A stretch of 64,000 nucleotides of DNA, from NCBI GenBank assembly GCA_017626295.1, contig JAGAJB010000036.1, forward strand, positions 1 to 64,000, read 5' to 3'. A program made the position numbers and the translations under genes. How positions within the stretch are numbered: the first letter of the stretch is position 1; the number at the start of each line of letters is the position of its first letter. Positions 481-46,452 of the stretch are shown one piece after another. The notes beneath the pieces are model-generated. The model saw only the letters and a program-made list of their open reading frames with translations. It did no database searches and had not been told where the DNA came from. Source of the DNA: Clostridia bacterium (GTDB lineage: Bacteria; Bacillota; Clostridia; Oscillospirales; Acutalibacteraceae).

Positions 481-661
481 CCAAGCCGAAGGATTGGTAT
501 GTAATGCCGTCAGGCGTATGTAATCAGCGAAGCTGTATGTCATCACCTTGGTGTATGCAATCTTCGGATTGATTACATGCATTTCTACGAAATGAATACA
601 TACACAACTTCGTTGTGATTACATTCCGTCTGCGACGGATTACATACAATGCTTCGCATTG
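481..661. repeat. Array of eight small hairpins with mirrored 8-bp linkers
   Basis: Short palindromic hairpins follow one another without gaps: 506-515 (GCC/GGC), 525-535 (CAGC/GCTG), 544-553 (CACC/GGTG), 559-570 (AATC/GATT), 580-594 (CATTTC/GAAATG), 603-617 (CACAAC/GTTGTG), 625-639 (TCCGTC/GACGGA) and 647-661 (CAATGC/GCATTG). In the left half they are joined by TATGTAAT-like linkers (498, 517, 536, 554). In the right half they are joined by its reverse complement, ATTACATA-like (571, 595, 618, 639). The linkers can therefore pair across the centre, giving a trunk with side hairpins. An imperfect CCAA/TTGG hairpin at 481-497 may be a ninth unit. There is no open reading frame of note. Confidence 0.8.
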
Positions 662-46198: not shown

Positions 46199-46448
46199 TA
46201 AAAATAAAAAGCCCCCATCCCAAAAGGGACGAAGACAAACTCCGCGGTACCACCCTAATTTTTGCTTTCTTTTCATCTAGAGCAAACACTCATCTGTAAT
46301 GTAACGGTTACACCCGTCGAAGCCTACTTAGTTTCAGCCACGCTGCTCACAAGTGAACTTCAAAGTAAACCTTTGTAATGTGCTTACAGCCTCGGGCACA
46401 TCTCTCTGTAACAGTAGTAAACTTCTACTCTCTTGCTCAACGCATTTG
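46199..46448 (-). promoter_or_regulatory. T-box riboswitch, tRNA-Phe specific
   Basis: On the minus strand the 14-base T-box core GGGTGGTACCGCGG is plain (46242-46255). A specifier codon TTC for Phe (46355-46357, in GAAGTTCACT) sits in the stem I loop. The terminator, CCC/GGG-based with a T run, lies near 46205-46233. Position before pheST fits the codon. About 165 bases of AT-rich spacer (with a GGCGC/GCGCC hairpin at 46151-46163) separate it from pheS. Confidence 0.93.
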
Positions 46449-46452
46449 CATT

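Follow-up and report, generated by a model that had tools for sequence, protein, structure and literature searches.

What kind of element is the 186-base block at positions 479-664 of the window (the whole 64,000-nucleotide stretch of Clostridia bacterium DNA analyzed here), in which eight small hairpins are arranged as a mirror image? A preliminary description, made from the letters of the sequence, had offered a spreading REP/BIME-like repeat or a structured RNA. Here, we report the structure of the array, its relatives in other genomes, and the reading that these favor.

The array in the window

All eight hairpins of the preliminary description were confirmed (481-661), and the mirror symmetry is real. 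The left-half linkers are, in order, TATGTAAT, TATGTAAT, TATGTCAT, and TATGCAAT; those of the right half (ATTACATG, AATACATA, ATTACATT, and ATTACATA) are their approximate reverse complements. The linkers, said earlier to be kept, are thus kept approximately, not exactly. The stem of the first hairpin (CCAAGCCGAAGGATTGG) has one G/A mismatch, the other seven are perfect, and the center has no hairpin of its own. A terminator palindrome, absent from the preliminary description, ends one base before the array. The features, in window coordinates, are as follows.

440-477, +, intrinsic terminator palindrome: perfect 17-bp stem, TTCG loop, A-tract and T-tract feet; the 3' foot abuts the array, 1 nt from the element start
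479-664, +, array element, ATCC...GATT; left end set by alignment of 30 copies
481-497, +, H1, the left-end hairpin, with X at 482-492 (CAAGCCGAAGG); conserved within the TATGTAAT family
498-505, +, linker TATGTAAT, from sequence
506-516, +, hairpin h2, GCCGTCAGGCG
517-524, +, second linker TATGTAAT, from sequence
525-535, +, hairpin h3, CAGCGAAGCTG
536-543, +, linker TATGTCAT; its A-to-C departure recurs in many copies
544-553, +, hairpin h4, CACCTTGGTG
554-561, +, linker TATGCAAT, from sequence
562-571, +, center X'2, CTTCGGATTG: second copy of the H1 3' arm, complementary to left-end X (with a mismatch in this copy); covariation
572-579, -, inverted linker ATTACATG, from sequence
580-594, +, hairpin h5
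595-602, -, inverted linker AATACATA, from sequence
603-617, +, hairpin h6
618-625, -, inverted linker ATTACATT, from sequence
626-638, +, hairpin h7, CCGTCTGCGACGG; present in other copies too
639-646, -, inverted linker ATTACATA, from sequence
647-661, +, hairpin h8, CAATGCTTCGCATTG; right end GATT closes at 664
685-713, +, probable promoter of the next gene, TTGTAA - 17 nt - TATAAT, read from sequence; a neighbor outside the element

Predicted folding is far past chance, both as RNA (440-700, terminator included; z of -8.5 versus shuffles) and as DNA (479-664; z of -6.6, with 0 of 200 shuffles as stable), and when both strands were folded the array was the strongest outlier within the 64-kb window. 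An Rfam search of the window gave no match to the array; the sole match was a T-box leader elsewhere (46222-46449, minus strand).

The upstream gene encodes a DUF3784 protein, and the next gene downstream encodes a flavin adenine dinucleotide (FAD) oxidoreductase. In three other species, genes related to the FAD gene have no array beside them, so the array is not a fixed regulatory part of this gene, and a specific role in its regulation was rejected. A 70-nt stretch with TTTTGACAAAAACAAGTTGTAAACACAAAAAATCAAGGACTTC flanks the FAD gene on both sides (397-466 and 2027-2099, 90% alike), with the array at the first only.

Copies, families, and turnover

BLAST of the array region identified copies at numerous places within the genus and also in the order's other families. 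Other genomes from this genus and order contain some 38 distinct relatives, mostly with unrelated flanks; in the window's own genome, BLAST detected one full-length copy only. A profile search over the retrieved DNA returned 40 non-identical matches, and the left end (ATCCAATCCGAAGGATTGG) recurs in the same detail at dozens of unrelated sites. The two-linker pattern matched in 19 of 148 relatives (few matches to the reversed-pattern control), and the ATTTCAT family matched in 20 of 60 (control, 3 matches in one genome); most of the genomes compared are incomplete assemblies. These copies support the suspicion of a spreading element in the preliminary description and bear out its impression that similar arrays occur in other gut clostridia. 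The TATGTAAT family appears not to be common outside the order, which is as far as a stricter pattern takes us: it was absent from 398 genomes across the phylum, and the same pattern misses the copy in the window's own genome. A scan of 84,980 genomes and viral contigs with the two-linker pattern was set aside, since the matches listed were mostly chance; the carriers named among these random matches were Clostridia and Oscillospiraceae metagenome-assembled genomes, several of them of animal-gut origin. Plasmid and phage records held no match to the array.

The copies share a site. In 35 of the 37 with enough flank, the distance from the element start to the 3' foot of a palindrome that forms an intrinsic terminator is 0 to 2 nt; these palindromes differ in sequence, and it is invariably the same element end that is next to the terminator. 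A detectable tRNA gene precedes nearly half of the copies listed. One TCGATAT-family copy abuts the foot of a hairpin that lacks a T-run, which hints that the hairpin foot itself may be the target. No clean target-site duplication, as would mark a DDE-type MITE, was seen, and the T-run blurs the junction. On balance, we lean toward the view that the window array is one copy of a non-coding mobile superfamily, inserting or exchanged at the 3' foot of terminator hairpins always with the same end on the terminator side.

The superfamily comprises at least nine linker families, unrelated in sequence and built on one blueprint: a hairpin at the left end (X-X'), an array of linkers in direct orientation, another X' about 80 to 100 nt in, and an array of linkers in inverted orientation, within roughly 110 to 210 bp. 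A search for mirrored linkers with no preset sequence recovered ATGTAAT, ATGAAAT, TGATATA, GTGATAT, AGTGAAG, ATGAAGC, AGATAAT, AAAGAAT, and TTCATTA, and then TCGATAT; the TATATCATC family was spotted by eye. Over 707 kb of the window's own genome (a sample biased to contig starts), there were 12 mirrored-linker arrays versus 3 and 0 in two control searches. A global over-representation test of palindromic 7-mers gave nothing notable. With regard to terminal inverted repeats, another mark of DDE-type MITEs, element ends are AATGAAAT..ATTTCATT in the ATGAAAT family, AATGATAT..ATATCATT in the TGATATA family, and ATC..GAT only in the TATGTAAT family. Behind tRNA-Ala and tRNA-Arg (L390, L396, L397) are what may be hairpin arrays of one more family, with AACTTCATTTG-like linkers.

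An exact complement of the left end (the X' copy) was found at element positions 79 to 103 in 18 of 21 arrays tested (P ≤ 0.015 by shuffling); the window copy matches with a mismatch, and two other arrays are weak. X and X'2 covary in the TATGTAAT family (0.148 versus 0.070 in shuffles, 0 of 500), a signal lost when the register is slid. Further copies and covarying stems, two of the things that the preliminary description had proposed looking for, are thus both present. H1 and the long-range X:X'2 helix are mutually exclusive, and the predicted DNA folds include both: a fishbone of stacked four-way junctions in a TCGATAT copy and, the other way, pairing of the left end with the center in an ATGAAAT copy.

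Orthologous sites hold different families or none. At one tRNA-Thr site, three species carry a TATGTAAT array and one carries an ATGAAAT array, and the window's own genome shows GAATAAA heptamers in mirrored arrangement. Arrays at the tRNA-Ala(GGC) site belong, depending on the species, to the ATGAAAT, TATATCATC, AGTGAAG, GTGATAT, TTCATTA, or TATGTAAT family, with none in the window's own genome; the tRNA-Arg(CCG) site has a similar variety. Two cases are nested. Behind tRNA-Arg in genome G005, a TATATCATC element lies between the terminator and the remainder of an ATGAAAT array that genome G013 has whole; in the window's own genome, the last hairpin of a TATGTAAT element (a right-end remnant) comes after an ATGAAAT element, together with flank matching genome G009 (87% over 63 nt). 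Different families or none at the same tRNA sites, together with nested replacements, point to mobile or cassette-exchanged elements. Species that differ in the array often differ in the terminator too; the terminator may therefore be part of the moving unit, or the exchange may be by recombination.

The arrays might instead evolve in place, by short-repeat slippage and palindrome-perfecting template switching, with families exchanged between loci by ordinary homologous recombination. Orthologous copies have indeed lost single units and swapped whole hairpins, the stems are near-perfect, and, as at L114, left halves can be identical, including 100+ nt of upstream flank, while the right halves differ. 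In-place evolution is nonetheless unlikely, given so detailed a left end at dozens of unrelated sites, the nested insertion in G005, and A-to-G and C-to-T wobbles that suggest selection on single-stranded pairing (below).

Fragments of the tRNA-Arg 3' end are repeated at L401, L402, and L397; at L401 and L402 they come with an identical downstream sequence, in tandem, a pattern of the kind that integrating elements leave. In the window's own genome, where the sampled stretches are mostly contig starts, many arrays (L352, L356, L359, L361, L362, L371, and window position 479) are no more than a few hundred bases from a contig end; such arrays may break assemblies.

Strandedness of stem pairing

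In the stem-pair analysis (STRANDEDNESS), 930 of 972 pairs over 204 distinct modules were Watson-Crick. Pooled, the wobbles (10 GT to 10 AC) had suggested strand-neutral DNA palindromes, a reading overturned by splitting the halves. On one DNA strand of the TATGTAAT family, G.T versus A.C pairs number 16:1 in the left half and 2:9 in the right (P = 7e-5), or 9:0 versus 1:3 with the outermost pair removed (P = 0.014). The signs are reversed in the ATGAAAT family (1:5 left and 4:0 right; P = 0.048), and pooled ATTTCAT-strand modules give 15:0; all of these numbers are low, and the copies, where related, are not independent observations. ATGAAAT-family modules at L400 and L416-L455 (e.g., CCGAGCGTAGTGAGG) often have stems with tandem G.A/A.G mismatches on the ATTTCAT strand. 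The wobbles seem to arise from both C-to-T and A-to-G changes, which single-strand wobble tolerance fits better than one mutational bias does. Judged by these pairs, each half-array seems to be kept as its own single-stranded unit, and one continuous RNA or DNA strand across the whole array seems not to be the selected form.

That the block is a structured RNA or leader transcribed from end to end, as the preliminary description had also suggested, is very improbable for the same reason: the wobble-tolerant strand flips between the halves, where one molecule should tolerate wobble on one strand throughout. The very stable fold and the covariation would suit such an RNA, but there is no Rfam match, and the block lies behind a terminator and ahead of what is probably the next gene's promoter.

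In the TATGTAAT family, the wobble-tolerant strand points inward from each end, and the terminators have the bias of the left half (8 GT to 1 AC). Both would suit an array that serves the host as a bidirectional transcription barrier or 3'-end stabilizer, with the left half read in read-through RNA and the right half in antisense RNA, and the array does always lie between a terminator and what comes next. In the ATGAAAT family, however, that strand runs outward, and presence at a given site is not conserved; we regard a host-useful structure as quite unlikely.

Candidate mobilizers, known systems, and meaning

Against the mobile reading, no mobilizing enzyme was found. Y1 transposase genes gave no match in the window's own genome or in G006, G008, and G009 (several of these genomes being incomplete), and the check for HUH enzymes covered Y1 only. 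Reverse transcriptase (RVT_1) had no match in the window's own genome and some other carriers. Beside the Y1 loci of other genomes, clear arrays were not found (one weak match near L309). At L314 (1000-2900), a RAYT-like Y1 gene is surrounded by repeats of the "GACAGGGGACGGTTCT" type, which form a family separate from the arrays. At L052, the gene that directly follows a left half was considered as part of an autonomous element and rejected: the open reading frame has no Pfam match, and the stretch read has no right half.

REP/BIME elements, moved with RAYT (Y1) transposases, are small intergenic palindromes that are mirrored, dispersed, and variable in unit number. The arrays share all of these properties. 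Unlike REP/BIME elements, in which the palindrome is conserved, they keep the linker and let the stems vary freely, hold a fixed position at a terminator foot, carry an X' copy at the center, and have no linked Y1/RAYT gene; with no REP sequence either, the membership suggested by the preliminary description finds no support. Like the arrays, group IIC introns go in directly behind intrinsic terminator hairpins and in a fixed orientation. Unlike a derivative of such introns, the array has no ribozyme match, and its genome has no reverse transcriptase match. Palindrome-associated elements derived from IS200/IS605 have hairpin ends and oriented insertion with no target duplication. Hairpins at the ends and fixed orientation are common to the arrays, which differ in that no Y1 match was found in the window's own genome or several array carriers; we know of no such architecture from this group.

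Two published repeats are partly similar. The BrickBuilt MITE of Porphyromonas gingivalis is likewise intergenic, MITE-like, and built of repeats (a tandem 23-nt repeat, adjacent with no spacers, with leader and tail ends); unlike the arrays, it has no mirrored halves, as far as it is described there, and the abstract mentions no terminator targeting (PMC4596501). Heptamer TAACTGA repeats of Beggiatoaceae and cyanobacteria are also short intergenic arrays of patchy distribution; unlike ours, they are direct and mostly near start codons and, in the parts of that account considered here, are not mirrored and show no palindromic modules or terminator association (PMC4679880). A search of the open-access literature found no description of arrays like the present ones, and the set is apparently undescribed.

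The reading that fits best is a mobile element of a new type, a non-coding hairpin array that targets terminators. We suppose that the hairpins would be recognized as single strands, half-array by half-array. A recombinase or transposase acting in trans, and targeting hairpin feet, would then insert or exchange the element. The element would give the neighboring gene no specific service, and the downstream side of a terminator, as a harmless landing place, would explain its spread. More tentatively, the elements may form a new class defined by architecture, in which unrelated families share one blueprint, a terminator-foot target, a hairpin-recognizing enzyme, and rapid turnover at tRNA genes.

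If this is true, a widespread class of short mobile DNA in gut clostridia would have been overlooked because its families have a common plan and no common sequence. It would bring a testable target rule, the terminator foot, and a reason to seek the moving enzyme. Arrays of this kind also seem to be close to many of the contig breaks found in metagenome assemblies, and their movement would give a cause for the fast change of DNA behind tRNA genes.
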